Source: a virus
DNA: 24,830 nucleotides
Reading direction: 5' to 3' (one strand)
Virus record (IMG/VR): IMGVR_UViG_3300046499_000532
Coordinates: 1-24,830 of that record
In this document: positions 1,892 through 21,146 of the stretch, piece after piece
How positions within the stretch are numbered: position 1 is the stretch's first letter
How the letters are laid out: the number at the start of each line of letters is the position of its first letter
The notes under the pieces: generated by a model
What the model saw: only the letters and a program-made list of their open reading frames with translations
Database searches by the model: none
Told to the model about the DNA's origin: nothing
Position numbers and translations under genes: made by a program

Positions 1892-1928
1892 CTTGTTCCA
1901 CAAGTTGTTCGTCAACTTGTTGTTCAAG
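1892..1928 (-). repeat. 12-bp repeat array A (upstream of recA)
   Basis: On the minus strand three 12-bp units follow one another: TTGAACAACAAG, TTGACGAACAAC and TTGTGGAACAAG. The consensus is TTGTGGAACAAG. The gene-proximal unit is also a dyad, CTTGT-N3-ACAAG at 1892-1904. The array ends about 13 bp before the recA start. The same repeat occurs at 11834-11870, 18729-18764 and 21098-21146. Confidence 0.85.
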
Positions 1929-1932
1929 TAGG

Positions 1933-1940
1933 ACACTAGG
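1933..1940 (-). promoter_or_regulatory. Possible -10 element for the recA unit
   Basis: The minus strand has TAGTGT (fits TANNNT) directly upstream of repeat array A, so a transcript would start at or just inside the array. No good -35 hexamer is visible 16-18 bp further up. If real, a protein bound to the array would block initiation. Confidence 0.3.
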
Positions 1941-2010
1941 CGCCCGAGCGTTCCAGGCACATGGAGTCGAGTTGCTCGTGAGGATCACGGATCGATCACA
2001 GAATCCGGGC

Positions 2011-2050
2011 AAAACAAAACCCCCGGCTGCCAGGGGGTGGCGGCCGGGGG
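2011..2050 (-). terminator. Intrinsic terminator of the 60-aa gene
   Basis: On the minus strand an 8-bp GC stem (CCCCCGGC / GCCGGGGG; arms at 2043-2050 and 2020-2027) is followed by TTTTGTTTT at 2011-2019. This is a textbook Rho-independent terminator. It separates the small gene ending at 2072 from the recA unit. Confidence 0.85.
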
Positions 2051-2071
2051 CGGCGTCTGCGGGGGCTGGAC

Positions 2072-2254
2072 TCAGACGGGAAGGATCGTTCTCGCGAGCT
2101 GGTAGGTGACAGCGCCGGTACCGAGATGCACCATGCACTTGACGAGGCCCGTTTCGACAGCGTTCGCGAGCGCCTCACTCGTCAGGACTTCATCCATGAC
2201 TTCAGCCACCGAAGCGGGCACTCGCAGGCCCAGCCCACCCTCAATCTCCACCAT
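2072..2254 (-). CDS. Small protein, function unknown
   Basis: A 60-aa protein starting at ATG 2252-2254, with GGAG 5 nt upstream; longer in-frame starts lack a comparable site. It begins MVEIEGGLGLRVPASVAEVM and is mildly acidic and helical, with no motif I recognise and no membrane span. It forms a single-gene unit ending in the terminator at 2011-2050. It is divergent from the XRE cassette at 2494, so both may share the control region between them. Confidence 0.6.
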   Translation of the reverse strand: MVEIEGGLGLRVPASVAEVMDEVLTSEALANAVETGLVKCMVHLGTGAVTYQLARTILPV

Positions 2255-2493
2255 GACCGCTCCATGCCGACCGGACGCCGCAGGCCGCCCCCTGAGAAAC
2301 AGAAGGACCAGCCGGCGCGTGCCGGCGGTCAACGTCCACTTCCTGAGGATGCGGCGCGTGAGGCGTGGTTGTCAACTAAACTTTCCAATAGTCGGATCCT
2401 GTGTAGAGACGGGTAGGTTGCGGTGATCCAATCCTTGGCCACGGTTTACGACGGCGGACATGACCGGCCGCCCACCAGCAGGGAGACCACCTC
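2255..2493. promoter_or_regulatory. Divergent control region between the 60-aa gene and the XRE gene
   Basis: No gene is convincing here. A locally AT-rich patch at about 2365-2400 contains the 9-bp palindrome GTTGTCAAC (2368-2376). Within it the minus strand carries TTGACA (2370-2375), a perfect -35 hexamer. A weak -10-like CATCCT lies 18 bp downstream, which would drive the 60-aa gene. The palindrome is a natural candidate operator for the XRE protein encoded next door. No strong plus-strand promoter is visible. All functions are inferred from position. Confidence 0.35.
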
Positions 2494-2979
2494 TTGAGCG
2501 ACAGATCTTTGGCGTCCAAGGTGTCCTGGCTCATGGACCACACACAGGGCCCGGACGGCAAGCCGTGGACCACCCGCTCGCTCGCGGCGGAGACACAGGC
2601 ACACGGGGAGGGGATGTCGCACGCGACCGTGGGGAAGATCGCGGACGGCACCAACGACAACCCCCGCATGAAGACCGTCGAGGACCTGGCGGCAGCGCTG
2701 GCAGTCTCGCCCGGATTCTTCTTTTCGCTGTACGATGTGTCCGATTTGCCTTCGGTTCAAATGTTCGGTAACCCTCGGATACGTGAATTGCTTACCGCGA
2801 TGCAGCGCCTGAGCCCTGCTGACCTAGCCGACGTCGAGGCTCTGGTCGCAGCGCGTGTGAGTGAAGCAGGCGACCCCCCAACGCATCCCCTCCCCCCACC
2901 TCCCGAGCCGCCGAGGCGGCCCGGACGTCGCCGTATGTCCGAGGCTGCACGACGCGCTGCAAAGTCACTGGAGCCCTAG
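2494..2979 (+). CDS. XRE-family helix-turn-helix regulator
   Basis: This 161-aa protein starts at TTG 2494, with GGGAG about 8 nt upstream. Residues about 26-75 form an XRE/Cro-type DNA-binding domain: TTRSLAAET, then SHATVGKIADGTNDNPRMKTVEDLAAALAVSP, the usual ending of the five-helix fold. A second helical region follows (IRELLTAMQRLSPADLADVEALVAARV), then a proline-rich linker and a basic tail (RRPGRRRMSEAARRAAK). It is one of three plus-strand genes I support and is followed after 1 bp by a membrane-protein gene. Similar XRE plus membrane-protein pairs occur in Streptomyces chromosomes. It could be a lysogeny repressor or the regulator of an accessory cassette; the sequence does not decide between these. 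Confidence 0.82.
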   Translation: MSDRSLASKVSWLMDHTQGPDGKPWTTRSLAAETQAHGEGMSHATVGKIADGTNDNPRMKTVEDLAAALAVSPGFFFSLYDVSDLPSVQMFGNPRIRELLTAMQRLSPADLADVEALVAARVSEAGDPPTHPLPPPPEPPRRPGRRRMSEAARRAAKSLEP

Positions 2980-2980
2980 C

Positions 2981-3769
2981 TTGAAAAGCGCGTTCTACTC
3001 GGCGTCGCTCGTCCTTGGACTCATAGCTACCGCCGAGCTTTTCCGCCGCTCCCGCAACAAGGCTGGCCACCGCAGCACCGTGATCGGGGCCAGCCTCGCC
3101 TGCACCGCCACTGCGTTCGCGACCGTCGCCATCGCCTTCGCCGACCCCCTCATCGTGCGGCCGTTCGCTGAGGCCACGGGCATCACGGGCCTCGCCATGT
3201 TCATATCGGGCACGGCGGTACTCGGCCTGCTCGTCATGATCCTGGCGCTGCTGTCCTGGTGGATCTTCCGGGGTGTCGCCTTCACCGTGTCGCTTCTGAC
3301 CATAGGCGTCATCACCGCGGCTGTGGCCGGCTCCATGGTCCTCTTGTTCGCCCAGTCGCCGCAGGCCAGCAAGTACACAGGGACCAGCCTGCGGTTCCTT
3401 GTCGCCGACCTCGCTCGGCACGGACCGCTGTGCAACAGGCCCGTCGCGTACGCGTGCATCTACTTCAGCTACGTGATCTTGGCGTGCATCGGCGTCACCC
3501 TGGGCTTCTCATTTCTCGGACTCGGCGCCAAGGATCTGGGACTCCGCGTGTCAGCCGGCTTCTGGTCAGCCGCCTGCGCTGGAACCATGGGCATCGTCTA
3601 CGCGGGGCTCAGCCTTTACGCAGTCATATCGGGGGCAGTCCTGCACCACCTCGTCCTCCCGTTCGGGGGGACCGAGACGGCGACGGCATTCGGCGTGTGC
3701 GGAGCGCTGGCCTTCGCGTGCGCAGTGCTCATCCCCTACGTCCCCATGAAGCCCCAGCGAGCCCGCTGA
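2981..3769 (+). CDS. Multi-pass membrane protein, partner of the XRE regulator
   Basis: This 262-aa protein starts at TTG 2981, one base after the XRE stop, with GGAG (2970-2973) 7 nt upstream. An earlier in-frame ATG at 2861 would overlap the XRE gene heavily and is less likely. Seven or so hydrophobic spans are visible. The first begins in SAFYSASLVLGLIATAELF; others are GLAMFISGTAVLGLLVMILALLS, FTVSLLTIGVITAAVAGSMVLLF, YFSYVILACIGVTLGFSFLGLG, SAACAGTMGIVYAGLSLYAV and FGVCGALAFACAVLIPYV. The layout recalls Streptomyces membrane proteins annotated MAB_1171c-type putative transporter that pair with XRE regulators, but that is a resemblance only. No catalytic motif is visible. The gene is co-transcribed with the XRE gene and ended by the hairpin at 3783-3819. 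Confidence 0.75.
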   Translation: MKSAFYSASLVLGLIATAELFRRSRNKAGHRSTVIGASLACTATAFATVAIAFADPLIVRPFAEATGITGLAMFISGTAVLGLLVMILALLSWWIFRGVAFTVSLLTIGVITAAVAGSMVLLFAQSPQASKYTGTSLRFLVADLARHGPLCNRPVAYACIYFSYVILACIGVTLGFSFLGLGAKDLGLRVSAGFWSAACAGTMGIVYAGLSLYAVISGAVLHHLVLPFGGTETATAFGVCGALAFACAVLIPYVPMKPQRAR

Positions 3770-3782
3770 CGCCGCAGGAACG

Positions 3783-3819
3783 CAGCAGGGGCCACACCTG
3801 TGCGATGTGGCCCCTGCTG
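3783..3819. terminator. Convergent (bidirectional) hairpin terminator
   Basis: A perfect 14-bp stem, CAGCAGGGGCCACA at 3783-3796 paired with 3806-3819, has a 9-nt loop. It lies between the plus-strand membrane-protein gene (stop at 3769) and the minus-strand RNR gene (stop at 3832). No long T-run follows on either strand. Its strength and position indicate a shared terminator. Confidence 0.8.
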
Positions 3820-3831
3820 TGTGTCTGCGGG

Positions 3832-5781
3832 TCAGGCGACGAGGTCGACGACCTCACACGCGCCGGCCGTGCACGCCAGTTCCTGGCTGCCGACCGTGGA
3901 GTCCTCGACCTCCCAGAACGGCAGGTCCTCCCAGTGGATCTCTGCCGGCATACGGCTCAGCAGCTCCTCGTACGCCTCGCGCGAGCACTCCTCATACGGC
4001 GCCTGCTGGTAGGTGTGGTCCGAGTGGGGCAGGAAGCTGACGCCGCTGATCTCGGACAGGTGGCTCCACACCCACTCCCCGACCTCGTCCCACTCCTCGT
4101 TGCGTACCGAGATGGTCACCGACGGCTTGTGATCGCACCAGTGCCGCTGGACATCGAGCCACAGCTTCAGGTGGTCGACCGCGGTGACCTGGTCGCGAGT
4201 GATCGCGCCGGCCGGCGCCGCGATGGGGAACGAGAAGACGTTGTTGCTCGGGCTCATGACGTCGTCCTCGCACGGTACGCCGTAGGTCTGCATGAGCTGG
4301 GACAGCGGGTCCTTCTTGTCGGCCCGGACGCGGCGGATGTAGTACTCGCTGTGCCAGGTGTGCAGGCCCGAGGAGACCCCCGTGAGCTGCGAGACGGTCC
4401 CGGACGGCTTCACGCAGGTGATCGCGTGGGATCGGTTGATGCCCAGCTCGTCGGCGTATTCGGCGTTGACCGAGGACGACAGTTCCCGCAGCTCGTCGAG
4501 CAGCTCGTTGCGCTTCACGGCCGACTGGGTGACCAGTAGATCGGAGCCGAAGACCCCGGTGAGGGAAGCGCCCAGGAGGCGCTCCTCCTCGGCGTTCTGG
4601 CGCCACTCGTCACGCAGGAAGGGGTAGTCGGTCAGCGTGCTCTGCCACGTGCCCAGAATCGTCGCCAGCTCGACCTTGCGGGCCAGCGTTTCCTTGGTGT
4701 CGTCCTCGCGGACCACGACCTCCGAGAGGTTGCAGAAACTGAACGGACGCAGAATGATCTCGCTGCACGGGTTTGTCCCGTACATGACGTCCTCATCCCG
4801 CTTGCCGTACTTGCCCGCCTGCCGCTGGGCGGCGCCGCGGTGGAAAATACCGCGCTCGCCCGAGCCCGAGGCGACGAGGCTGGCCCACTCGACGTCGAAA
4901 TCCTCGCGGCTCATGTCGTCCGAGTACACAGCGCTGTTGTTGGCCAGTTGGCGGTAGGGGTGGTCCTTCCACCACTCCCCCGACTTGGCCTCGGCCATCT
5001 CCCGGTCGGCGAGGTCGGACAGCGAGATCATCGCCGAGCGTCGTACGCCACCCACCACGATCACCGATGCGATCTTGCAGGCGAGGTCGTGGGCCTCGAT
5101 CGGACGCAGGCGACGGCCGGCCGCGCCGTGCAGGAGCTTGATCGTGAAGTCGAAGAGGTCCTGGAGGGGTTCGGGGCCGGACGCACGGCCGCCGAAGGTG
5201 CGCAGGCGCGCGCCTGCCGGCCGTACCTCGCTCGTGTCGATGCTGGGGATGATGCCGTCCAGCCACACCAGGCGCAGTAGCTCGTCAAACGCCTCCGCCC
5301 ATCCCAGCTTGCTGTCTCCGACGGTGATGACGATCTCCGGTACCCGCCGCAGGAGGTCGGGGACGACCGGGAGCTGGGAGACGTAGTGGTTCTCGACGCT
5401 GTAACCGACGCCGGTCCCGTTCATCAGGATGAAGAGCAGTTCGGAGAAGGCGCGCAGGTCCTGCAAGGGGAGGTACGAGCAGTTGAAGCCGGCGATGTTG
5501 GACAGTTCGAGTGCTTCGCCGGCTGTCATCACCGCGCGCATGCTCGGCATGACGTCGTGCTGGAGGACCGCGTGGCGCATCGCGTACAGCAGGTCCTTGT
5601 CCGGACGGTAGTCGAACTCGTCGGCCAGGTGCTTGGTCATGAACGCGAAGTACCGGTCCACGGTCTCCGCCCACGTCTCCCGGCGTGATTCGGCTTCTAC
5701 GTACCGCGCGTATCGGGACAGCGCTATGTAGTTCCGGTACGGGTCCTGGAGGGTTCCGTCCGGGTTGAGGATGGTACTCAA
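3832..5781 (-). CDS. nrdJ: Class II (adenosylcobalamin-dependent) ribonucleotide reductase
   Basis: The 649-aa enzyme reduces ribonucleotides to deoxyribonucleotides for phage DNA synthesis. The catalytic cysteines of the monomeric class II enzyme are all recognisable. Cys101 (FNCSYL) and Cys350 (FSFCNLSE) are the redox pair, and Cys339 in NPCSE (337-341) is the thiyl-radical cysteine together with Asn337 and Glu341. Cys637 and Cys642 near the C-terminus (ACTAGACE) are the re-reducing pair. The 11-residue gap between the second and third catalytic cysteines and the 5-residue gap of the tail pair match the Lactobacillus leichmannii enzyme, as I recall its numbering. The protein is somewhat shorter than that enzyme (about 739 aa). 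The start is TTG at 5781, with GGAGAG just upstream. It is the last gene of its leftward unit. It would depend on host vitamin B12 cofactor. Confidence 0.94.
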   Translation of the reverse strand: MSTILNPDGTLQDPYRNYIALSRYARYVEAESRRETWAETVDRYFAFMTKHLADEFDYRPDKDLLYAMRHAVLQHDVMPSMRAVMTAGEALELSNIAGFNCSYLPLQDLRAFSELLFILMNGTGVGYSVENHYVSQLPVVPDLLRRVPEIVITVGDSKLGWAEAFDELLRLVWLDGIIPSIDTSEVRPAGARLRTFGGRASGPEPLQDLFDFTIKLLHGAAGRRLRPIEAHDLACKIASVIVVGGVRRSAMISLSDLADREMAEAKSGEWWKDHPYRQLANNSAVYSDDMSREDFDVEWASLVASGSGERGIFHRGAAQRQAGKYGKRDEDVMYGTNPCSEIILRPFSFCNLSEVVVREDDTKETLARKVELATILGTWQSTLTDYPFLRDEWRQNAEEERLLGASLTGVFGSDLLVTQSAVKRNELLDELRELSSSVNAEYADELGINRSHAITCVKPSGTVSQLTGVSSGLHTWHSEYYIRRVRADKKDPLSQLMQTYGVPCEDDVMSPSNNVFSFPIAAPAGAITRDQVTAVDHLKLWLDVQRHWCDHKPSVTISVRNEEWDEVGEWVWSHLSEISGVSFLPHSDHTYQQAPYEECSREAYEELLSRMPAEIHWEDLPFWEVEDSTVGSQELACTAGACEVVDLVA

Positions 5782-5792
5782 TTGCTCTCCGG

Positions 5793-6164
5793 TTATCCGA
5801 GACGGCCGACTACGGTCATCGAGAAGCCGCCTTGTTTATTGGCCGCCGTCTGTCGCGCGGGGGTTGCCTTGCCCTCGGACTTGATGGTGAGTCCGGAGGT
5901 CGAGTGGAGTTTGGGATAGCCGCATTCGTAGCAGCGCTTGCCGGCCCGCGGTTCCGTGGGGATGGCGAAGTAGTTGCTGCCGCCGCATTCCGGGCACATC
6001 TCGGAGTTCCGGGCGTGTGCGGCCTGGCGGGGTGGTGGAGCCTGCTGCTCGAACTGGGCCGGGTACGGAGCCGGCGGCTGCTGGTACGGCTGTTGGTACG
6101 GCTGCGCAGGCGGCTGGTAGGCAGGCGCAGGGGCGCCGAGGTGCTTGTTCCAGAAGTTACTCAC
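5793..6164 (-). CDS. Zinc-ribbon protein with a Pro/Gln-rich N-terminus
   Basis: This 123-aa protein starts at GTG 6164, overlapping the preceding stop by one base (TAGTG). Residues about 10-48 are a Pro/Gln/Tyr-rich low-complexity stretch with YQQP-type repeats. A two-knuckle zinc ribbon follows: CPECGGSNYF, then 12 or so residues, then CYECGYPK. The rest is basic and glycine-rich. It sits between the 122-aa gene and RNR. Function is unknown; the ribbon suggests nucleic-acid or protein binding. Confidence 0.75.
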   Translation of the reverse strand: MSNFWNKHLGAPAPAYQPPAQPYQQPYQQPPAPYPAQFEQQAPPPRQAAHARNSEMCPECGGSNYFAIPTEPRAGKRCYECGYPKLHSTSGLTIKSEGKATPARQTAANKQGGFSMTVVGRLG

Positions 6165-6532
6165 TACACCACTCCGCTTTGGATGAGGCCCTTGTCGTTG
6201 AGGTTGGAAAGCACCGCGATGACAGAGGAGGTCAGAATGGCCTGGTAGTCCGTGCGGAACGCCGAGTACTCAGCCGGGTCGTCTTCCAAATCAGAGGTGT
6301 CCAGGATACCTCCGAAAAGAATGTCGGTGATGAGCGCTCCGTACACCGCGATAAGCGGGAAGAGCGGCTCAACTTCCGCCAGGCGCTCTGTCGATTCGCG
6401 CTGCTCCATTTCGAGCACCTCACTGCTGCGCCCGACCTGACCGCTCTTGACGAGCAGATCGTTTTCCGCTCGGCCGGCATTGAGGTCCTGAGCCAGTTCG
6501 GCCTTGAGGACCTCGAAGGGAATTGTTCTCAT
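6164..6532 (-). CDS. Conserved-looking phage protein, function unknown
   Basis: This 122-aa protein starts at ATG 6530-6532, 2 bp after the DNA polymerase stop. The N-terminal half is charged and helical (VLKAELAQDLNAGRAENDLLV; EVLEMEQRESTERLAEVE). A moderately hydrophobic segment follows (LFPLIAVYGALITDILFGGIL), then an acidic stretch and another mildly hydrophobic helix (AILTSSVIAVLSNLNDKGLI). The hydrophobic parts look more like a buried protein core than clear membrane spans. I do not recognise it. Confidence 0.65.
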   Translation of the reverse strand: MRTIPFEVLKAELAQDLNAGRAENDLLVKSGQVGRSSEVLEMEQRESTERLAEVEPLFPLIAVYGALITDILFGGILDTSDLEDDPAEYSAFRTDYQAILTSSVIAVLSNLNDKGLIQSGVV

Positions 6533-6534
6533 TG

Positions 6535-8481
6535 TCAATCCTTGGCTTCGGACCAGCGCTCGCACACGGCGACGTCGGCGGTGAGGGGGACGTTGATGAG
6601 GTGCTGGATTCCCTCGCCGATCATTGCCTCCTGGAGGAGCTTGGAGCCGACGTCGACCAGGTCCTCCGGGCAGATGACGACGAGTTCGTCGTGGACGGTG
6701 AGGCTGAGCTTGATGCCGTCGTGGCCGCTCTCCTTGATGGCCTTGTGGAGCCGGACCATGGCGAGCTTGATGAGGTCGGCCGAGGAGCCCTGGATCAGTG
6801 AGTTGACGGCGCGGCGTTCGCCCTTGGACCGCAGCCACTTCAGGCCGGAGGCGATCTCCGGAAGCCGGCGCTTGCGTCCGAGGAGCGTGGTGAGGTCGTG
6901 GGTCTCGCGCTTGCGGACGGTGTTGACGACCGACCGCTTGAACTCGTAGATCTCGGGGAACTGCTCCTCGTGGATCTGCATGATGCGCTCGGCCTCGCGC
7001 ACCTTGATGCCGGCCATCGCCGCGACGGTCTCAGGGCCTGCGCCGTAGACGATCGCAAAGTTGAGACCCTTGGCGACCTGGCGCATCTCCTTGGTGACTT
7101 CGTCCCAGGAGACGCCGAACACGAGGGCTGCGGTGGCCGTGTGGGCGTCCACGCCGGCCAGGAAGCCTTCGTACAGGGCGCCGCGGCCGAGGTAGTGCGC
7201 GAGCACCCGCAGTTCGATCTGTCCCCAGTCTGCGATGAGGAGCTTGTGGCCCTTGGGCGCGACGAACAACGACCGGACCTTGGTGCCCAGTTCGGTTCCC
7301 GGCCGCGGGACGTTCTGAAGGTTCGGGGCCGAGCAGGAGAAGCGTCCGGTGCGGGCGCCGTACTGCTTGAAGATCGGGTGGATGCGCCCCTTGAAGACCC
7401 GTCGCGGCTGGTCGGCCTTGCCGAGGTAGCCGTAGACGTACGTCGAGAGGAGCTTGTCGACCTCGGCGTACTCCAGGAGGATCCGGCAGACCTCGTTCTC
7501 CGGGTACGCCTCCAGCGTCTCCGCGTCGGTGCTCCAGTCCCGGAAGCCGACCTTCTCGCCGTTGCGCTTCTTGGCCCTGCCGCCGTCGGTGAGCTTGATG
7601 GGCTTGAGGCCCTGGCCGCCCTCGGCCTTGGACAGGTAGAGGACGTCCTGACGCTGAGGCGGGGAGCCGACGTTGAAGACCTTGCCGGCCGCCCGGAACA
7701 GGCGGGTCTTGATCTCCTCCAGCTTGATGACGAGTTCGTGCTCCAGCTCCAGGAGCCGGTCCTCGTCGATGCAGGCGCCCGTGGGGTGCATGTCGAGGAG
7801 CACTTCGGTGACGCTGAGTTCGAGCGCCATGATGCGGGAGAGGTCCTGCTCGACCAGGTCGCCGCACATCGCACGCCACAGCAGCCAGGTGTACTTGGCG
7901 TCGAGGTAGGCGTACCGGGCGACCTTGGTGAACCCGTGCTTCTCGACTTCCTTGCCGACGTTCTCCGTGTCGTACTTGTGCTTGTACCGCTTCTCTACGA
8001 GCGTCTTGAGGCCGTTGAGGCGGTTCTCGTCGAGCAGCCAGGAGCCGACCAGGGTGCAGCCGTAGGGCTTGGGCGGGATCCGCCCGCCGTAGTACTTCGC
8101 GAGGCTGCCGAGGTCGAAGGTGGCGCTGTGGGCGACCTTTCGCCGGCTGGAGAAGAGCAGGGGCTCCAGCGCCTTGAAGACCTGGCTCGGGCGGAGCTGC
8201 TTGGGCGGGGCGCTCCACACCGCGGGGACGGTCTCCCGTTCCCCGGTCTGCTTGTTCTTGCGCCAGGTCGCCTTGCTGATGAGGCGGTCCCCGTTGGGGT
8301 GTCCCAGCGGGATGACGACGGCGCGACCGTAGGTGGCCAGGGCCACCCACAGGATTTCGTTGGCGACGGGGACGCCTCGGTGTGACCCGACCGTCTCGAT
8401 GTCGATGACGAACTCGTCGTACCGCGAGAAGTACGCGACAGCCTCTTCGAGGTCTGCCATCGTCAGGATGACGTCGCGCAC
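6535..8481 (-). CDS. polA: Family-A DNA polymerase (Pol I-like) with 3'-5' exonuclease domain
   Basis: This 648-aa replicative polymerase has an N-terminal proofreading domain: Asp27 and Glu29 in VIDIETVG, then AHSATFDLGSL and YAYLDAKYTWLLW. The C-terminal polymerase domain follows. Motif A is LLIADWGQIELRVLAH with catalytic Asp about 418. Motif B is RQVAKGLNFAIVYG with Arg467, Lys471, Phe475 and Tyr479. Motif C is TVHDELV with His597, Asp598 and Glu599. There is no 5'-3' exonuclease domain, as is usual for phage enzymes. I chose GTG 8479-8481 because AAGGA lies about 10 nt upstream. The frame runs back to 8541, but that would overlap the methyltransferase by 41 bases. An ATG at 8460 is an alternative without a clear ribosome site. 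Confidence 0.93.
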   Translation of the reverse strand: MRDVILTMADLEEAVAYFSRYDEFVIDIETVGSHRGVPVANEILWVALATYGRAVVIPLGHPNGDRLISKATWRKNKQTGERETVPAVWSAPPKQLRPSQVFKALEPLLFSSRRKVAHSATFDLGSLAKYYGGRIPPKPYGCTLVGSWLLDENRLNGLKTLVEKRYKHKYDTENVGKEVEKHGFTKVARYAYLDAKYTWLLWRAMCGDLVEQDLSRIMALELSVTEVLLDMHPTGACIDEDRLLELEHELVIKLEEIKTRLFRAAGKVFNVGSPPQRQDVLYLSKAEGGQGLKPIKLTDGGRAKKRNGEKVGFRDWSTDAETLEAYPENEVCRILLEYAEVDKLLSTYVYGYLGKADQPRRVFKGRIHPIFKQYGARTGRFSCSAPNLQNVPRPGTELGTKVRSLFVAPKGHKLLIADWGQIELRVLAHYLGRGALYEGFLAGVDAHTATAALVFGVSWDEVTKEMRQVAKGLNFAIVYGAGPETVAAMAGIKVREAERIMQIHEEQFPEIYEFKRSVVNTVRKRETHDLTTLLGRKRRLPEIASGLKWLRSKGERRAVNSLIQGSSADLIKLAMVRLHKAIKESGHDGIKLSLTVHDELVVICPEDLVDVGSKLLQEAMIGEGIQHLINVPLTADVAVCERWSEAKD

Positions 8482-8500
8482 GTCTCGTGGTCCTTCCGTA

Positions 8501-9586: not shown

Positions 9587-9608
9587 GCGTGTTCCTTCGC
9601 TGCGGGGT

Positions 9609-9651: not shown

Positions 9652-9662
9652 GGTCAGGTGGT

Positions 9663-10514: not shown

Positions 10515-10515
10515 A

Positions 10516-10740
10516 TCAGTCCTCGTCGTCGGTGATGGCGGGGTGGACGTGCGCGAAGGAGTTGTCCTCGGTGGTGAGTTCGGCCGCCATCCGCCGCTCG
10601 CGCTCCAGCAGTTCGTCGATGGCGTCGTCCAGGACGCGCGGGTCCGTCGACTTGACCCGAGCGGTCACCTCGATGTGCTCGTAGGAGCCGAGGTTGAAGC
10701 GCTCGGTGACGGTCTTCTCGTACTCCACGACCGGCTTCAC
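10516..10740 (-). CDS. Small acidic protein, function unknown
   Basis: This 74-aa protein starts at GTG 10738-10740, overlapping the MerR-like gene stop by 4 bp (GTGA). The N-terminal half looks like beta strands (VVEYEKTVTERFNLGSYEHIEVTARV) and the C-terminal half is a charged helix (VLDDAIDELLERERRMAAEL) with an acidic end. Translational coupling to the MerR-like gene and the SSB gene suggests a replication-linked role. No family is recognised. Confidence 0.7.
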   Translation of the reverse strand: MKPVVEYEKTVTERFNLGSYEHIEVTARVKSTDPRVLDDAIDELLERERRMAAELTTEDNSFAHVHPAITDDED

Positions 10741-11225
10741 GCCGCCGCCTCCTTCTGCCTGAGCTGCTCGAACGCTTCCGTGACACGCGCGGTGAACCGG
10801 GTGTCCGTGATGCGGATGCCTCGGGGATCGCCGTCGAACAGCCCTTCCTCTTCCGCGATGCGGACCATGACGTTGATCTGGTCGCGGGTGTAGAGGCGGC
10901 GGTTGCCGTTGGCGGTCTTGCCGCTGATGACGTAGGTGGCCTTCGGGATGACCCCGCCGGCCTCCCACTTGCGGATCGTCACGGCGTCACGCCGCAGCGC
11001 CTTGGCGAGGTCGCCGATGCCGAAGAACTCGCGGTAGCCGCCGGCGAAAGGCTTGACCTGCGGCTTGGCGTCCCAGCGGTCCGGGTCGAGTTGCGCGACC
11101 GTGTCCGAGCGGAGGTCGGCTTGTGTGCGCACGGGCAGGCGCGAGATGCGTCGGGTGGAGCCGGGGTAGAACTGTGTCGGCGGCTGGTCGGCGATGCTGG
11201 CGAACTCGCTGTCCCAGTCCCTCAT
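10737..11225 (-). CDS. MerR-like helix-turn-helix DNA-binding protein
   Basis: This 162-aa protein has a MerR-type winged-helix domain in its middle (about residues 66-125): FFGIGDLAKALRRDAVTIRKWEAGGVIPK, then a wing loop and GNRRLYTRDQINVMVRIAEEEGL. The RRLYTRDQ segment is the typical MerR wing-2 signature. The N-terminal 60 residues and the C-terminus are unlike classical MerR sensors, and no metal-binding cysteines are seen. It could be a transcription regulator or an excisionase-like DNA-bending protein. The start is ATG 11223-11225, overlapping the previous stop (ATGA). It is the second gene of the unit headed by repeat array B, so it is one candidate binder of the 12-bp repeats. Confidence 0.75.
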   Translation of the reverse strand: MRDWDSEFASIADQPPTQFYPGSTRRISRLPVRTQADLRSDTVAQLDPDRWDAKPQVKPFAGGYREFFGIGDLAKALRRDAVTIRKWEAGGVIPKATYVISGKTANGNRRLYTRDQINVMVRIAEEEGLFDGDPRGIRITDTRFTARVTEAFEQLRQKEAAA

Positions 11226-11719
11226 GCGTCCACCCGCTTGAACCGAAAGCCTTCCTTCTCCGGGAAGATCCGCTCCATGTGCTCGTCCGTCAGGAGGCCC
11301 TCCTGGTACAGGACGTACGCCTCCTGGGGGTCGAACTGGCGGACCATCGGGAAGAGTCGCTCGTAGACGACGGGGTCGGTGCCGCTGTTGACGGCCGCGG
11401 TGTCGACGTCACGGGCGATGCCTTCGGCTTCGTCCTCGTCCAGCCCCTGGGTGGTGTACCGCTCCAGCTTCATGCCCTTGAAGGGCTTGTCCCCGACGCG
11501 CAGCGGGCGGGGCAGCTCGATGATGTAGCTGCCCTTCTCGTCCTGGATGCCGACCTCTCGCAGGTCGGCGGTCATGTCGTCGCGGAGCTTGTTCAGCAGC
11601 GACGTCTGGGTGTCGACGCGGTGCTTGATCACGGCCCACTGGGCAGCCTTGCGTTCGAATCCGGATTCCGGCGTGTTCGCGTTCAGAGCCGACTCTGCCG
11701 GGGCGTCAGAGAAATCCAC
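11222..11719 (-). CDS. Phage protein of unknown function
   Basis: This 165-aa protein starts at GTG 11717-11719, with GAGGAG about 6 nt upstream. Visible parts are a Lys/Arg-rich helix (AAQWAVIKHRVDTQTSLLNKL), a strand-rich middle (GSYIIELPRPLRVGDKPFKGMKLERY), and a C-terminal helical region (FDPQEAYVLYQEGLLTDEHM). No catalytic motif is recognised. It is the first gene of the unit that also encodes the MerR-like protein, SSB, methyltransferase, polymerase and RNR. Confidence 0.7.
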   Translation of the reverse strand: MDFSDAPAESALNANTPESGFERKAAQWAVIKHRVDTQTSLLNKLRDDMTADLREVGIQDEKGSYIIELPRPLRVGDKPFKGMKLERYTTQGLDEDEAEGIARDVDTAAVNSGTDPVVYERLFPMVRQFDPQEAYVLYQEGLLTDEHMERIFPEKEGFRFKRVDA

Positions 11720-11749
11720 GCCGTCTCCTCAAGTACGTGTAGGGACAAC

Positions 11750-11815
11750 GTCGCCAGGGCGGCTGACTGCGCGGTAACAACAGACCACCGCAGATCGAGG
11801 GCGCGCCCTGGCGAC
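11750..11815 (-). promoter_or_regulatory. Long-loop inverted repeat in the leader of the SSB/polymerase unit
   Basis: A perfect 12-bp inverted repeat has GTCGCCAGGGCG at 11750-11761 and its complement at 11804-11815, separated by 42 nt. It lies between repeat array B and the first gene of the unit. It could form a leader-RNA hairpin or be a paired protein-binding site. No known riboswitch is recognised. Confidence 0.55.
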
Positions 11816-11833
11816 TGATCACAGACTAACACT

Positions 11834-11870
11834 CTTGAGGAACAAGTTGAAGAACAAGTTGTGCATCAAG
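11834..11870 (+). repeat. 12-bp repeat array B
   Basis: On the plus strand three units run in tandem: TTGAGGAACAAG, TTGAAGAACAAG and TTGTGCATCAAG, with a degenerate fourth starting TTA. The array lies between the terminator at 11888-11916 and the start of the leftward unit beginning at 11719, about 115 bp from that start codon. The length (37 bp) equals array A. Confidence 0.85.
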
Positions 11871-11887
11871 TTACTGGACAGCAGGAA

Positions 11888-11916
11888 GCCCCGGTGGCTC
11901 GTGCGTCCACCGGGGC
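11888..11916 (-). terminator. Hairpin terminator of the DUF2637-like gene
   Basis: A perfect 10-bp stem (GCCCCGGTGG at 11888-11897 paired with 11907-11916) with a 9-nt loop lies 10 bp downstream of the stop at 11927. Only a short T-poor tail (TTCCTG) follows on the minus strand. It closes the long helicase/primase unit just before array B. Confidence 0.75.
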
Positions 11917-11926
11917 CCCTGGGATG

Positions 11927-12928: not shown

Positions 12929-12934
12929 ACCGAC

Positions 12935-13126
12935 ATGGGGAAGATCGAGACCGTTGGCGTGCAGCAGGCGCGCGACAACCTGCGGGACCACATCGACGCT
13001 GCGGTGAAGGACGACCAGATCACGGTCATCACCCGGCACGGCAAAGAGGTGGCCGCCCTGGTCCCGTCCGACTGGTACCAACGGGCTCGGGCTGCTCTGG
13101 AAGCTCAGGCCGCCGGCGAGAACTGA
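12935..13126 (+). CDS. Orphan Phd/YefM-type antitoxin-like protein
   Basis: This 63-aa protein matches the Phd/YefM antitoxin fold: VGVQQARDNLRDHIDAAVKDDQ, then ITVITRHGKEVAALVPSDWYQRARAAL. The N-terminal half is the DNA-binding dimer, with the TRHGK-x-VAALVP strand pair typical of the family. No RelE/Doc/PIN-like toxin gene lies beside it on either strand. It is the only plus-strand gene within the leftward replication region, and its 3' end overlaps the SNF2 helicase gene tail-to-tail by 22 bp. Possible roles are a phage-borne neutraliser of a host toxin-based defence, a small repressor, or a remnant of a toxin-antitoxin pair. Confidence 0.8.
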   Translation: MGKIETVGVQQARDNLRDHIDAAVKDDQITVITRHGKEVAALVPSDWYQRARAALEAQAAGEN

Positions 13127-15722: not shown

Positions 15723-16971
15723 CGTCCACCTCCTCACCGAAGGGGTCGCCCTGCTGCTCGATCAGGGAGCCGGACTCCCAGTCCAAGCGCACGAACCACT
15801 CGTCCTTGGGGACGTTGCGGCCGGCCAGCACCTTGAGCTTGTAGAACATGGGGTCGTCGGTCTGCTCGACACCGAGCGCGAGGGTGGCGTCCTGGGCGAA
15901 CGCGGAGGTGTAGCCCATGGAGCCGGAGTTGAGGCCGTTGGCGCCGAGCTTGGAGCGCAGGGCCTGCGTGGTGACCACGAACGGCAGGCCGTTGCGGGCC
16001 GCCATCCGCTTGATGCCTCGGGAAATGTTGGTCATGGCCAGCGGCGTCTGCTGCTCGCCGCTGACGGCGTCCACGAAGAAGTAGGCGCCGTCGATGATGA
16101 CCGCGTCCGGCTTGTACTCGTCGATCTTCGCCTGCACGTTGTCGAGGGTCATCCGGGCGGAAGGGTCCTCGGCGATGATGTAGTCGCCCATTCCCTCCAG
16201 CTTTCGCATGGCCTTCTCCAGCCGCTTCCACTCCAGCTCGTTGAGTTCGCCGGCTCGGAGCTTGCGCTGGCTGATGCCAGCGAGGAAGGAGTCCAGGCGC
16301 TCGGAGATCTCCATGGCGCTCATCTCGAAGGAGAAGAGCAGCGGGCGGGCGCCGACGGCGTGCATGGCGCGGGTGACTGCCAGAAGGGTCGTCGTCTTGT
16401 TGGACTTCTCCAGACCGGTGAGAGTGACCATCTGGCCAGCCTGGAGGCCGAGGGTGAGCCTGTCGAGCGACGGGAAGCCGGTGGGAAGACCTATCAGCTC
16501 CCCTTCCTCCCGCTCGGCGTATGCGCGGTAGGTGGCGAGTCGGTCGTCAACGGTCTTGGCCCAGTTGAAGTCGTTGCCGACCGGGGTGTCTTCCGCCACC
16601 TTGCTGATCAGGGCGCGCACGATGTCGAGCGCGTGGTCGGTGTCGCCCTGGCCAACCAGCGCCTCGACGGCCGCGTTGAGACCGCGCTCGGTCAGAGCGG
16701 TGCGGCGCCGGTCGCGAATCCGGTCGATGAGGTAGTCGAGCGGCTCGTCGACCTGGGCGACCTCGAAGGTGGGGTGGTCGGCGCGGACCGCGTCGAGGGT
16801 GGGCGCCATGCCGTACTCGGCGTTGTAGGCGATCATGTCCTCGAACACGCGCCGGATCTCGCCGTTGGTGATGTGCCTGGGCTTGATCTTGGCGTTGAGG
16901 ACGGTCGTGATGTCCCCGGTCGCGATGACCTTGCACAGGAGCTTGTGCTCGTGCGAAAGGACCGTCGTCAC
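15694..16971 (-). CDS. dnaB: DnaB-like replicative helicase
   Basis: The 425-aa protein has a short N-terminal domain (1-140), then the RecA-like ATPase core. LIGLPTGFPSLDRLTLGLQAGQMVTL precedes a Walker-A-like GLEKSNKTT at 186-194, followed by LLFSFEMS (motif H1a, Glu216), DAVIIDG (Walker B) and FVVTTQALRSK (motif H3 region). DnaB unwinds DNA ahead of the fork as a hexamer. The P-loop is unusual: Asn replaces the last Gly of G-x4-GK-T/S, while Lys and Thr remain. The start GTG 16969-16971 overlaps the preceding stop by 4 bp. The neighbours are its loader upstream and primase downstream, as expected for a replisome unit. Confidence 0.87.
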   Translation of the reverse strand: MTTVLSHEHKLLCKVIATGDITTVLNAKIKPRHITNGEIRRVFEDMIAYNAEYGMAPTLDAVRADHPTFEVAQVDEPLDYLIDRIRDRRRTALTERGLNAAVEALVGQGDTDHALDIVRALISKVAEDTPVGNDFNWAKTVDDRLATYRAYAEREEGELIGLPTGFPSLDRLTLGLQAGQMVTLTGLEKSNKTTTLLAVTRAMHAVGARPLLFSFEMSAMEISERLDSFLAGISQRKLRAGELNELEWKRLEKAMRKLEGMGDYIIAEDPSARMTLDNVQAKIDEYKPDAVIIDGAYFFVDAVSGEQQTPLAMTNISRGIKRMAARNGLPFVVTTQALRSKLGANGLNSGSMGYTSAFAQDATLALGVEQTDDPMFYKLKVLAGRNVPKDEWFVRLDWESGSLIEQQGDPFGEEVDDEVPAYAGW

Positions 16972-17201
16972 TGGCTTCCCCCCTTCAGGGCCGTGAGGAT
17001 GGTGTTGATCAGGACCGTCTTGCCGGTGCGCCGCGGCCACTCGATGTGGAGCTTGAAGGTGGACCAGTCCGGCTCGACGCCGTCCAGGCGCATCTGCGCG
17101 AGGATCGCGGTGAGTCCGGACCGCTCGATGCGGCGCACCTGGTGCCGCGGCATCCATGCCGGCAGCTCGAAGCTGTGCTCGTAGGTGCAGGCGTGCGTCA
17201 C
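16968..17201 (-). CDS. Small phage protein, function unknown
   Basis: This 77-aa protein starts at GTG 17199-17201, overlapping the PP-loop gene stop by 4 bp, and overlaps the dnaB start by 4 bp at its own end. It is basic, with HSFELPAWMPRHQVRRIERS and WPRRTGKTVLINTILTALKG. The RRTGKT string resembles part of a P-loop, but the protein is far too small for a P-loop ATPase, so I read it as coincidence. No family is recognised. Coupling on both sides supports it as a real gene. Confidence 0.7.
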   Translation of the reverse strand: MTHACTYEHSFELPAWMPRHQVRRIERSGLTAILAQMRLDGVEPDWSTFKLHIEWPRRTGKTVLINTILTALKGGSQ

Positions 17202-18016
17202 GCGGCGGTGCTCTCTTCCTCGACGAAGCAGCCGCAGCCGCCTATGTCGTAGGGGTCGACGTTGATCTGCTCGGTCTCGACGCGCTCGCGGAACTCCCGC
17301 AGAGTCATGGGCTTAGTGGTTCCGCCTCGCCGGTCCCGGAGGATGGCGACGTCCTTGCCGAGGTGGGTGCGGAGGTTCTGCTCCTGCTGCTCGTGGTAGG
17401 CGTAGCGCTCGGGCATGACCTTCAGGAGGTTCTTGAACTGGGCCTGGCCGGAGCGGACGCAGAACCCTCCGCAGTTCGCGTGGGCGAAGCCCATGCCGTA
17501 GAGCCGGGGCGGCTTGATGCCGCGATCCTTGAGCTGGTCGAGGATCTCGTCCTTGTCGAGGTAGGGCGGCTCACACAGAGGCGCGACAGCCTTGTAGGGC
17601 TTGTAGGAGCGCTCGATGGCCGGCAGGCGGTGTGCCTCGCTCCAGTCGATCCCGACGTAGACCGTGGTCTCTTCCGGGTCGCAGTTGGCGTTGAGCCACT
17701 CGCGCGCCGGCCGCTGCTTGAGGAACTTCGAGCAGTTGGCAAGGCGGGTATTGCCGAGGAAGCGGTCGTCCTTGAAGACCTGCCAGACGTCGCGTCCCTC
17801 GTTCAGCCATATGAGCTGTCCTCCGAGGTCCCACGCGGCCTGCCGCAGGAAGCGGTAGTTGTCCTTGTCCTCGCCGGCGTGCGGGCTGGGGTTCTGGCCC
17901 TTGACGTCGGAGAAGACGAGGTACAGGTCTTCGTTCCCGTGCTCCTCGACGACGCGCCGTCCGGCGGCCCAGGATCCTGCGCCGCTGCTGAACATGACCA
18001 CGCGCTTATGCGGCAC
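17198..18016 (-). CDS. PAPS-reductase-like / adenine nucleotide alpha-hydrolase protein
   Basis: The 272-aa protein begins VVMFSSGAGSWAAGRRV. SSGAGS (10-15) is at the place of the PP-loop (SGGxDS type) that binds ATP or PAPS pyrophosphate. It continues as a Rossmann-like alpha/beta fold (LYLVFSDVKGQ; QLIWLNEGRDVWQVF). A cysteine motif NCGGFC (Cys182, Cys186) and a C-terminal GGCGCF follow, suggesting metal or Fe-S binding. This is a form common in actinophages and annotated as PAPS reductase. The true reaction is unknown; sulfate reduction is unlikely, and nucleotide or DNA/RNA modification is a guess. The start is GTG 18014-18016, with AAGGGA about 10 nt upstream, overlapping the loader gene by 11 bp. 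Confidence 0.75.
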   Translation of the reverse strand: MPHKRVVMFSSGAGSWAAGRRVVEEHGNEDLYLVFSDVKGQNPSPHAGEDKDNYRFLRQAAWDLGGQLIWLNEGRDVWQVFKDDRFLGNTRLANCSKFLKQRPAREWLNANCDPEETTVYVGIDWSEAHRLPAIERSYKPYKAVAPLCEPPYLDKDEILDQLKDRGIKPPRLYGMGFAHANCGGFCVRSGQAQFKNLLKVMPERYAYHEQQEQNLRTHLGKDVAILRDRRGGTTKPMTLREFRERVETEQINVDPYDIGGCGCFVEEESTAA

Positions 18017-18695
18017 GACGGTGGTCCCTTCCGGTCATCGGGACGACCTCGCACGCCTCCGTGAGGAAGCTCTGCATGGAGAGGTTGTAGGTCTTGTCCC
18101 AGTCGCCGGGCTTGTTGTTGCTGGTCAGGATCGTGGGACGGGCGTTGCGGTGCCTGCCGCGGATGAGTGCGTCGAAGACGTCGGCCGCGAAGTTGGAGGC
18201 GGTGTGGTGCTCCTTGCCGAGGTCGTCGAGGACCACCAGGGGGCAGGAGAGAACCTTGTCGAGCATCTTCTGGAGCTGCTGGAAGCGTTCGCGGGCCATC
18301 TCGTCCCCGGTGGCCTGGTAGAGGTCCCGCCAGTGGCGGTGGTCGATCAGGGCCTGGACGTAGTCGGCGAAGGGGACGAAGAACACGACGCCGCCGTGGG
18401 CCCGCCGGATGGTGGTGATGACGGCCGACGCGGTTGTGGTCTTGCCGGTGCCGGCGTTCCCGAAGAGCAGCAGCCCCTTGCCGACGAGGCTTCGGTCCTC
18501 GGGTAGTTGGGCCATCGTCGAGTCCTGCGGGATGTAGCGCTGGGTCCAGGTGGCGACGAAGCGCTCGATGGTCTGCCGGACGTCGGGGTGCATCTCGGTT
18601 ATGTCCTCGACGCCCCGGCCCCAGTGCTTCACCGGGATGCGGGCGGTGCGCCAGACCAGGCTCTCGTCCCTGGTCTGTGCCTCGGCGGTCTGCAC
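18006..18695 (-). CDS. DnaC/IstB-like helicase loader ATPase
   Basis: The 229-aa protein is an AAA+ ATPase with Walker A GNAGTGKT (79-86), Walker B LVVLDDLGKE, and the sensor-like segment PTILTSNNKP. Its size and order match DnaC/IstB-type loaders that place DnaB on DNA; dnaB lies two genes downstream. I chose GTG 18693-18695 because AGGAGGAGG lies immediately upstream. The frame runs open to 18737, but that would enter repeat array C. The first part of a unit reaching at least to 11927 is headed by this gene, just downstream of array C. Confidence 0.85.
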   Translation of the reverse strand: MQTAEAQTRDESLVWRTARIPVKHWGRGVEDITEMHPDVRQTIERFVATWTQRYIPQDSTMAQLPEDRSLVGKGLLLFGNAGTGKTTTASAVITTIRRAHGGVVFFVPFADYVQALIDHRHWRDLYQATGDEMARERFQQLQKMLDKVLSCPLVVLDDLGKEHHTASNFAADVFDALIRGRHRNARPTILTSNNKPGDWDKTYNLSMQSFLTEACEVVPMTGRDHRRAA

Positions 18696-18728
18696 GGTCC
18701 TCCTCCTTGCGCTGGCGTGAGGACCACA

Positions 18729-18764
18729 TTGAATCACAACTTGTGGAACAACTTAAAGAACAAG
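18729..18764 (+). repeat. 12-bp repeat array C
   Basis: Plus-strand units are TTGAATCACAAC, TTGTGGAACAAC and TTAAAGAACAAG, and TTG begins another. The array lies between the initiator-like gene (stop at 18772) and the helicase-loader start at 18695, about 34 bp from that start codon. Its gene-proximal part resembles array D on the minus strand: TTAAGTTGTTCCACAAG here and TTAAGATGTTCCACAAG there. Confidence 0.82.
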
Positions 18765-18771
18765 TTGCCCG

Positions 18772-19719
18772 TCACCAGGACCAGTCCTTCGCCGGCTGCT
18801 CCCCCGCGTCCTCGCTCCAGCCGTCGTAGACCTCGTCCGGACGCTCCTTGGCAGCCTTCGCCTCGCGCCCCTTGCGGACCGCGTCGATGAGCAGGGCGCG
18901 CTTGCCGATGAAGTCCTGCCAGGCGAGCGCACGCGGGTTCCGCAGGCCCTCCGTGGTGGCGTACAGCTCGCTCATCTCCCGCAGCTCGTCCGGCGTCAGG
19001 CCGGCCTGCTTGAGCTTCACGAAGTGGCTGGCGAGCGCCTTGAGGTTGGACTCCAGGCCGAACGCCCACCGCTGCGCCTCGACGGTCTCGCGCCAGTGCC
19101 GGGCAAGACCTGGACCGGTGTCAGGACCGGGCTGGCGGCTCCCAGACGCCCTCTCTCGCCGGCCGGCACCCCAGCCGCTGCGCGGGATCTCCGGAGCCTC
19201 CTGGGAGGCGTCCTCGTCGTCCCACAGGCCCATGGCCTTGGCCGGGTCGTAGGCGTCCTCCTCAGCCGCCCGGCGCTGTTCCTCGGCTCGCCGGGAGGCC
19301 CTGCGCGGCGCCGTTCGCGGAGCGTGCGGCCCTTCCGAAGGAAGGATGTTCACTGGTTCTATTTCTTGTTGCGCCAGATTTGGCGTAACCCCTACGACAG
19401 ATTTGGCGTAACCCATCTCCTCGGGGGTGGCCAGGTAGTAGTTGCACGGGCCGCCCGGCCGGCGCCGCTCGGTGCGCAGCCAGCCGCTCTCACGCAGCTC
19501 GGTGATGCGGCGCGAGACGGTGCGCAGGGACCAGTTGAGGTCCTTGGCCAGCGTCTCCTGCTTGGGGAAGGCGCAGCCGTTCTTGCCGGCGTACTTGGCC
19601 AGGAGGCAGCCGAGGCGGAAGGCAGCGTCGCTGATCTTGCTGTCGAGGATGAAGACGTGCGGAGTCTGGACCCACAGTTCGTGGGCCTGGAGCCGGTCCT
19701 GCTGCTGGGCGTCGGTCAC
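18772..19719 (-). CDS. Replication-initiator-like protein with N-terminal winged helix
   Basis: This 315-aa protein has an N-terminal winged-helix domain (about 20-95): FILDSKISDAAFRLGCLLAKYAGKNG, then FPKQETLAKDLNWSLRTVSRRITELRESGWLRTERR. This is the arrangement of phage replisome organisers. A charged disordered linker follows (about 125-205, Arg/Ala/Glu-rich). A C-terminal helical region (HWRETVEAQRWAFGLESNLKALASHFVKL; LTPDELREMSELYATTEGLRNPRALAWQDFIGKRALL) could contact the helicase or its loader. The start GTG 19717-19719 overlaps the preceding stop by 4 bp. The gene holds a 17-bp direct repeat at 19375-19414 in its linker, a likely origin element, as in lambda O. Confidence 0.75.
   Translation of the reverse strand: MTDAQQQDRLQAHELWVQTPHVFILDSKISDAAFRLGCLLAKYAGKNGCAFPKQETLAKDLNWSLRTVSRRITELRESGWLRTERRRPGGPCNYYLATPEEMGYAKSVVGVTPNLAQQEIEPVNILPSEGPHAPRTAPRRASRRAEEQRRAAEEDAYDPAKAMGLWDDEDASQEAPEIPRSGWGAGRRERASGSRQPGPDTGPGLARHWRETVEAQRWAFGLESNLKALASHFVKLKQAGLTPDELREMSELYATTEGLRNPRALAWQDFIGKRALLIDAVRKGREAKAAKERPDEVYDGWSEDAGEQPAKDWSW
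19375..19414 (+). repeat. 17-bp direct repeat inside the initiator gene (candidate iterons / ori)
   Basis: CAGATTTGGCGTAACCC occurs at 19375-19391 and identically at 19398-19414, a 23-bp period. Because 23 is not a multiple of three, the two copies are read in different codon frames (GYAKSV and TPNLA). The identity is therefore at the DNA level. The repeats lie beside a locally AT-rich stretch (about 19345-19385) in an otherwise very GC-rich gene. No further full copies were seen. Confidence 0.75.
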
Positions 19720-19976
19720 CGGCCACCCTCAGAGGTGATCAGTCCGGCGGAGCGCAGCTCGACCCACCAGCCGTTGACTTTCGGCAGCGACTCGTTCCTC
19801 TCCTCGGCGAGCGCCGCGGGAGTCATCTCGGCGCCCTCCTCGCGGGTCAGCAGGTAGACGTACAGGCCGAGGGCACCGCAGGAGATGCGGTTGGTGGTGG
19901 CGATCTCGCGCGGGACGCTCACGGGGGCGTTGGCCCAGCCCTGAAGAGTCCCCTTCGGGTAGTCGTCGTGGCTCAT
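19716..19976 (-). CDS. Small winged-helix DNA-binding protein
   Basis: This 86-aa protein starts at ATG 19974-19976, with GAGG about 7 nt upstream. It resembles the N-terminal domain of the initiator-like protein downstream: VPREIATTNRISCGALGLYVYLLTREEGAEMTPAALAEERNESLPKVNGWWVELRSAGLI is a helix-turn-helix core with a Ser-rich turn and a C-terminal wing. It could be a partner or a duplicated domain of the initiator. It overlaps the initiator start by 4 bp, so the two are translationally coupled. Confidence 0.7.
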   Translation of the reverse strand: MSHDDYPKGTLQGWANAPVSVPREIATTNRISCGALGLYVYLLTREEGAEMTPAALAEERNESLPKVNGWWVELRSAGLITSEGGR

Positions 19977-20010
19977 CTGGTCACCTCGGAAAGCTGTGGG
20001 AGCGTGGGTA

Positions 20011-20036
20011 AGCGGGGCGGCCGGGACCGCCCCGCT
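20011..20036 (-). terminator. GC hairpin after the 330-aa gene
   Basis: A perfect 10-bp stem, AGCGGGGCGG at 20011-20020 with its complement at 20027-20036, and a 6-nt loop lie 12 bp downstream of the stop at 20048. No T-tract follows on the minus strand, so termination may be partial. It lies ahead of the initiator genes. Confidence 0.6.
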
Positions 20037-20047
20037 GATGGCCCTTG

Positions 20048-21040
20048 TCAGGCCGCGACCTCGCGGATCTCGACGTCCTTGCGCGGTCGTCCGCGCAGGG
20101 GCTCCCACTCGCGGGTCTTCGGGTTGAGCCACTCCTTGCGGACCTTGCCGGTGGAGCGCTTGGCCGGCGGCTCCACGGCTTCGGCCAGGTCGACCGGCGC
20201 GGCGTCCTGTGCGGTGTCGTTCTTGACCGCCTCCAGGCCCTTCATGGCCAGCGCCGTGATCGGGCGGTAGCGGACCTCGGCAAGGTTGGCCGCGGCGTTG
20301 GACTCGTCGACCAGGCGCAGGTGCCGGACCACGGCCGACAGGACCTCGACCACCTCGGCGTTCGGGGGCCGGTAGCGCTCGATGCTGACGGTCTCCCGGT
20401 GAGCCGCGGCGACTTCGGTCTCCAGCGTCTCTTCGGGCTCGTCGGCCGCCGGCTGTTCGGGGAGCGGGACGAGGGTCTGGGTGCCGCCCTCGCAGGGCTC
20501 CTCGTCGACCTCCTCCGGCTCCGCGTCGGCGTCCTCCTGCTCGGCCTCCGCCTCGACCTCTTCGGGCTCGGGCGGGGTGATCTGCTTGAGGGCGTCACGC
20601 AGGTCCAGGACGGTGATGTCCTCGTCGAGCGCGTAGGCGACCAGGTCGCGGATGTCGTCGTCACCCTCGTCGGCGGCCACCAGCAGGTAGCGGTCGCCGT
20701 CACGCTCGGCGAGGGTGCGGCCGAGAACGGTGTAGACCTCTTCGTCCCGTGCCGGGACCGCGTCCTCTGCGTTGTCGCGGACGACCTTGGACGCCTTGTC
20801 GAGCGTCTGGGCGAGAACCGCCGTGTAGGCGACTTCCGGGTCCACGTCTCCGGACCAGTTGTAGACGGCCTTGACCGCGGGGGTGATGTATTCGGCGCCG
20901 GTCGGGAGGACGAGGAGGACCTCTTCGTCGGTGGTGGGCTTGCCGTTTGCGTCGATGCCGAGCCAGTCGTCGAGCAGTTCGGTGACGGTGCCCTTGTCGA
21001 CAGGGCCGGCCCCGGCGACAGCGATGTGGATGGTGGCCAA
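20048..21040 (-). CDS. Phage protein of unknown function with acidic middle and AT-hook-like tail
   Basis: This 330-aa protein starts at TTG 21038-21040, with AAGGAG 5 nt upstream. Residues 1-155 form an alpha/beta region (ATIHIAVAGAGPVDKGTVTELL; EEVLLVLPTGAEYITPAVKAVYN; RYLLVAADEGDDDIRDLVAYALDEDITVLDL). A strongly acidic stretch follows (EPEEVEAEAEQEDADAEPEEV), then a helical segment, and a basic C-terminus containing RGRPRKD, an AT-hook-like motif. This suggests DNA binding, perhaps nucleoid-like or regulatory, but no family is recognised. It is the first gene after array D and therefore probably expressed early. Confidence 0.7.
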   Translation of the reverse strand: MATIHIAVAGAGPVDKGTVTELLDDWLGIDANGKPTTDEEVLLVLPTGAEYITPAVKAVYNWSGDVDPEVAYTAVLAQTLDKASKVVRDNAEDAVPARDEEVYTVLGRTLAERDGDRYLLVAADEGDDDIRDLVAYALDEDITVLDLRDALKQITPPEPEEVEAEAEQEDADAEPEEVDEEPCEGGTQTLVPLPEQPAADEPEETLETEVAAAHRETVSIERYRPPNAEVVEVLSAVVRHLRLVDESNAAANLAEVRYRPITALAMKGLEAVKNDTAQDAAPVDLAEAVEPPAKRSTGKVRKEWLNPKTREWEPLRGRPRKDVEIREVAA

Positions 21041-21097
21041 TTGTGCTCCTTGTACGGGCACGTCGCGCCGTCCGAGCGGACGCGCCGGAGATCATGA

Positions 21098-21146
21098 CTT
21101 GTGGAACATCTTAACGTACAAGTTGTGGAACAAGTTGGCCAACAAG
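21098..21146 (+). repeat. 12-bp repeat array D
   Basis: Four plus-strand units lie end to end: TTGTGGAACATC, TTAACGTACAAG, TTGTGGAACAAG and TTGGCCAACAAG. Two are consensus or nearly so. The array sits between the holin-unit terminator (21150-21180) and the start of the 330-aa gene at 21040. It is the longest of the four arrays. Confidence 0.87.

Follow-up and report, generated by a model that had tools for sequence, protein, structure and literature searches.

Tandem-palindrome arrays at the heads of transcription units as probable dispersed operators of a lysogeny regulator in temperate Streptomyces phages

Our analysis suggests that four intergenic arrays of a 12-bp repeat in a phage genome fragment probably serve as dispersed operators for a lysogeny (immunity) regulator that the phage itself encodes and that is most likely a repressor. 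The fragment, which we call the window, is a piece of viral DNA of 24.8 kb (24,830 nt) with 66% G+C. In an integrated Streptomyces prophage, this regulator would silence the units for replication, recombination and integration. A shared operator switching the whole replication programme had been proposed in an earlier reading of the window made from the sequence alone (hereafter the sequence-only reading). On comparative grounds this proposal now appears well supported, since the arrays keep their positions among relatives, occur at the heads of further units, are replaced by lineage-specific dyads at the same loci in distant lineages, and were not found in the part of a virulent relative that was scanned.

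All four arrays, with 13 units in exact 12-bp register, were confirmed at the places where they had been described, far above chance expectation. Each unit consists of a 9-bp palindrome, ACAASTTGT, followed by NNN, and the period is strictly 12 bp. When three units of ACAASTTGT+NNN were required in register, exactly four arrays exceeded the threshold in the window and none did in four shuffles; shuffles served as the control, the reversed sequence being unsuitable because reversal preserves the 12-bp period. The 12-mer initially given as the consensus, TTGTGGAACAAG, is enriched at up to two mismatches (10 matches against 0.8 expected, a number that 0/100 shuffles reached). As a search string, however, it recovers only 7 of the 13 array units and misses the other six, so that the palindrome describes the unit better. 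Three lone matches to this 12-mer lie off the arrays, at or inside coding regions (6144-6155, 15839-15850 and 24468-24479), and look like chance occurrences. The unsymmetrised base counts of 88 units from 31 arrays, read on the strand of the downstream gene, give A-C-A-A-[C/G]-T-T-G-T, the central base being C in 45 cases and G in 41. This points to a dyad-symmetric site in double-stranded DNA, the orientation of which carries no meaning, and the assignment of the consensus to the minus strand in array A and to the plus strand in arrays B to D is thus meaningless.

The placement of the arrays, all intergenic and ahead of recA, the polymerase unit, the helicase loader and the 330-aa unit, was also confirmed. 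Array A (1888..1932) has three clear ACAASTTGT+NNN units and degenerate flanking units; it ends 12 bp from the start of the gene for a recA/UvsX-like recombinase (818..1879, minus strand, GTG at 1879), abutting a conserved Shine-Dalgarno run. Array B (11830..11874, three units) lies 114 bp ahead of a unit that begins with the gene for a 165-aa protein (11222..11719, minus strand), continues with one for a MerR-like protein (10737..11225, minus strand, with a weak Pfam match below the cut-off) and includes the polymerase. Array C (18729..18768, three units) is found between the stop of the gene for a 315-aa initiator-like protein and the start of the helicase-loader unit, the first gene of which encodes a DnaC-like helicase loader (18006..18695, minus strand). 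Array D (21094..21149, four units and a half unit) separates a terminator hairpin from the 330-aa/initiator unit, where a gene for a 330-aa protein of unassigned function comes first (20048..21040, minus strand). As to the terminators said to precede three of the arrays, terminator-like hairpins on the minus strand lie upstream of array A (2020..2036) and directly upstream of array D (21150..21180), whereas the conserved hairpin directly upstream of array B (11888..11916, minus strand) was left unscored by the terminator scan, and array C has none. Arrays C and D do share the element TTAAG-W-TGTTCCACAAG, but the TGAT said to follow it as a -10-like box varies across relatives.

Several other features of these regions deserve mention. 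In six relatives, the leader that runs from array B to the 165-aa gene (11720-11823, minus strand) is almost invariant. It contains a perfect inverted repeat of 12 bp (GTCGCCAGGGCG/CGCCCTGGCGAC), inside which there is a further hairpin. It showed no both-sided covariation and no Rfam match, and may be an origin element or act as a structured RNA. On the opposite strand, a 63-aa ORF (12935-13126, plus strand) resembles antitoxins of the Phd/YefM type by eye, with no partner toxin seen. A gene similar to phosphoadenosine phosphosulfate reductases (17198-18016, minus strand) lies within the replication block. Divergent from recA is a gene for an XRE-type regulator (2494..2979, plus strand), which forms with a membrane protein gene a pair (2494-3769, plus strand) that occurs as different alleles in relatives.

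The window is part of a temperate Streptomyces phage of roughly 90 kb. A megablast search of the window against 50,697 phage records gave no near match, and the 315-aa initiator-like protein had no match among phages. IMG/VR and the chromosome of Streptomyces diastatochromogenes ATCC 21481 (G006) contain relatives whose genes stand in the same order. The complete members are temperate and measure ~87-90 kb, two of them with a large serine integrase of 683 aa at the right end; the prophage with its serine integrase at the right end is located in a 7.7-Mb Streptomyces contig. In searches with the array pattern, the well-matching G+C-rich records of IMG/VR belonged to this group, most of the others being low-complexity or A+T-rich, and among 393 Streptomyces genomes intact phage arrays were present in G006 only. 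The other matches in Streptomyces genomes that we inspected had the even spacing typical of repeats in coding DNA. Searching IMG/VR with the phage tyrosine recombinase and with p213, a 213-aa protein encoded outside the window, recovered the same handful of genomes. Among annotated relatives, only the BRock group has a terminase with more than 50% identity (57%). Phage Samy was considered as a relative and rejected, as it is phiC31-like (PMC11302927).

In every genome of the main group, each of the four loci that the genome covers has its array, at recA, the 165-aa/polymerase unit, the helicase loader and the 330-aa unit. Additional arrays of the relatives precede p213, a small ORF to its left, the tyrosine recombinase and the serine integrase. 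The regulated set thus appears wider than the replication programme, adding the integrase, the tyrosine recombinase and p213. The scan of relatives recommended with the sequence-only reading thus found the arrays positionally kept, and 30 of the 31 tallied arrays lie outside called genes, in phages of which 83-92% of the DNA is called coding (four genomes measured). The lone array within a gene, an array A in the recA frame, results from the choice of an upstream start by the gene caller; in 6/6 aligned recA genes, the Shine-Dalgarno run AAGRGGGGG directly follows the array.

More distant lineages have other motifs at these loci. A search with p213 revealed a complete syntenic prophage in the genome G643 and another in G054, with 40-75% identity in most shared proteins. 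In the latter, the pair of XRE regulator and membrane protein adjoins p213. Neither prophage has 12-bp ACAASTTGT arrays, and both have other dyads at the same loci. The motifs were first picked by looking at these very promoters, and the following counts are therefore descriptive: in G054, the 12-mer GTGCAGGTGCAC with at most one mismatch has three copies in 82 kb, before the counterparts of p213, of the tyrosine recombinase and of the 165-aa gene, and in G643, 10 of the 14 copies of AACANNTGTT (up to one mismatch allowed) are intergenic, a number reached in 0/200 intergenic shuffles. The G054 12-mer has no further copy in the prophage, which is the strongest single fact of the analysis. It counts against the operator reading that the 12-mer marks only three of the loci and that no obvious dyad precedes recA in G054. 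The G643 sites include those before int, recA, the 165-aa gene, the tyrosine recombinase and p213, and the two regions richest in TGTT/AACA are those before the 165-aa gene and the tyrosine recombinase. Phage BRock (Borockvirus) resembles the group in that its terminase is related and its replication genes are similarly ordered. It differs in being virulent and in lacking arrays in the scanned bases 1-100000 of its 112.5 kb. The authors of its description predicted no lysogeny genes (PMC7453282).

How could the arrays act on transcription? Promoter boxes were placed by eye in alignments and most promoters were predicted in this way; scans of three array regions found no sigma-70 consensus promoter, so that the promoters discussed here are putative. 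The array of the tyrosine recombinase contains a TTGTGN, 18 bp behind which lies an invariant TAGGCT box. The array of p213 is followed closely, on its downstream side, by an invariant TATAGT. At recA, the array is found between a conserved TANNNT box and the Shine-Dalgarno run, where it would cover the transcription start. The position of the array relative to the predicted -10 box thus differs by locus, from upstream to downstream of it. We propose that each 9-bp palindrome binds one symmetric protein unit, and that the 12-bp spacing would permit neighbours to bind side by side, probably cooperatively, over or next to the promoter or, as at recA, over the transcription start. Repression rather than activation is inferred here, as are cooperativity and promoter overlap.

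Which protein binds the arrays? We tentatively regard p213 as the most likely candidate, at somewhat under an even chance. It is conserved in all complete genomes, and operator-like sites are present in its own promoter in all three lineages, where they could serve for autoregulation. It is also the most divergent of the proteins compared between lineages (22-24% identity, against 38-40% for the tyrosine recombinase, 55-57% for the polymerase and 75% for the terminase), and fastest divergence is expected of an immunity repressor. Such a fast-diverging repressor could have replaced its specificity while its targets were kept. The N terminus of p213 has four conserved Cys/His residues, by appearance a zinc ribbon, and the protein includes a duplicated three-helix repeat (profile-profile probability 96.8%, E 2.7e-10). 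Searches against Pfam, NCBIfam, PHROG and PDB gave no significant match to a DNA-binding family or fold. The structure model has modest confidence (pLDDT 68), and fold comparisons of p213 and of its 91-aa neighbour gave no informative match; in the distant G643, no 91-aa protein was seen in the interval from p213 to the recombinase. A conserved hairpin (CAAGAGGGGC ... GCCCCTCTTG; L041, ~4320-4420, and relatives) separates p213 from the 91-aa gene and resembles a terminator or attenuator. The choice of spacer between palindromes (GGA or GCA) partly tracks the allele class of p213 (Fisher p 0.007, or 0.02 without G004), in a post hoc test with non-independent counts that assumes G004 and contig 3300046473_000436 to be one phage and that became weaker when a further genome was added; it gives p213 weak support. 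With slightly more reserve, we suggest that p213 may be the founder of an undescribed family of phage immunity repressors, which would rule the phage via dispersed tandem-palindrome operators and whose lineages would have swapped these operators (ACAASTTGT, AACANNTGTT and GTGCAGGTGCAC) while keeping the target loci.

The tyrosine recombinase of the phage could instead bind the same operators, as a master repressor like MrpR, and leave integration to the serine integrase. The pairing would be that of SPbeta, which has a serine integrase, a protein with a tyrosine-recombinase fold and a dispersed repeated element (PMC10516654). The gene is present in all complete relatives, an array lies in its promoter in all three lineages, and the protein is dispensable as an integrase, since each of the three lineages has a serine recombinase. 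Yet the catalytic residues R, K, H, R, H and Y, lost in MrpR, are all present in the three lineages, and the tree of the recombinase does not track the p213 and spacer classes. Moreover, the first part of the recombinase is out of frame in G006 (S. diastatochromogenes; L063, ~5386-5480), possibly through a sequencing error, and the arrays there are intact. We consider this reading rather doubtful.

An activator, or an early sigma-like factor, is also unlikely as the binder; the arrays would in that case be early-promoter elements switching the units on after infection. The arrays do head early units, and the unit behind array B encodes the MerR-like protein. However, the varying position of the array, downstream of the predicted -10 box at recA, suits a repressor better than an activator, the scanned part of BRock has no arrays despite a similar replication gene order, and arrays also precede the integrase and p213. 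The XRE regulator beside recA is a classic repressor-type protein, the one of its kind, divergent from the early genes and present in all complete genomes of the main group, sometimes as a diverged allele. But it has three alleles with different recognition-helix regions, the core motif of the arrays is the same across genomes, and the allele pattern cuts across the spacer classes, which makes it a very unlikely binder. The MerR-like protein, which the sequence-only reading had put forward along with it, has no allele classes across relatives and, being encoded inside a controlled unit, is also unlikely.

Two further functions are less probable still. A role as replication iterons, or as sites where the tyrosine recombinase recombines DNA, is suggested by the proximity of several arrays to replication genes and by the initiator-like gene between arrays D and C, and is made highly improbable by the spread of the arrays over 80 kb, by their presence before non-replication genes and by a dyad spacing of 3 bp that is ill-suited to the core site of a recombinase. 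Partition (centromere) sites dispersed as in N15, the alternative offered by the sequence-only reading, would also be repeated and dispersed intergenic dyads, but can hardly be the explanation for phages that integrate with serine integrases, have their sites at unit heads, and carry no ParA-family gene in the three prophages examined, such genes lying elsewhere in the host genomes; unlike an N15-type element, the prophage is chromosomal and not extrachromosomal.

Mycobacteriophages and SPbeta offer well-known examples of dispersed repressor sites. The stoperators of Cluster A mycobacteriophages (L5, Bxb1) are dispersed copies of a site that varies in sequence with the repressor, with an operator at the repressor gene (PMC6550527); each is a single asymmetric site of 13 bp to which a monomer binds (PMC9283540), and most share one orientation. 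Our arrays resemble them as many dispersed copies of one site in a temperate actinophage, but they are tandem palindromes of 12-bp period, without orientation (C 45 : G 41), and present only at unit heads. The lineage-specific dyads at the same loci may be a counterpart to the variation of stoperators with their repressor, should the candidate repressor prove right. In SPbeta, the dispersed intergenic element SPBRE is the binding site of MrpR, which has the recombinase fold but has lost the catalytic residues (PMC10516654). The arrays share with SPBRE a dispersed and intergenic distribution (30/31 outside called genes), and the phages share with SPbeta the combination of a serine integrase and a tyrosine-recombinase-fold protein. 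In contrast, SPBRE is a 15-bp motif and not a 12-bp tandem array, the recombinase of these phages keeps the R-K-H-R-H-Y residues that MrpR lacks, and the best candidate binder is p213. The arrays would work like stoperators and SPBRE but lack the defining features of each that we tested, and the literature searches made brought up no description of a comparable 12-bp element. If confirmed, they would be a tandem-palindrome version of such control, found in undescribed temperate Streptomyces phages related to the virulent Borockvirus and exerted by a repressor of no known family. The target loci are shared by the three lineages and the operator motifs are not, which would then make the system a natural experiment on how the specificity of immunity is replaced at many sites at once.
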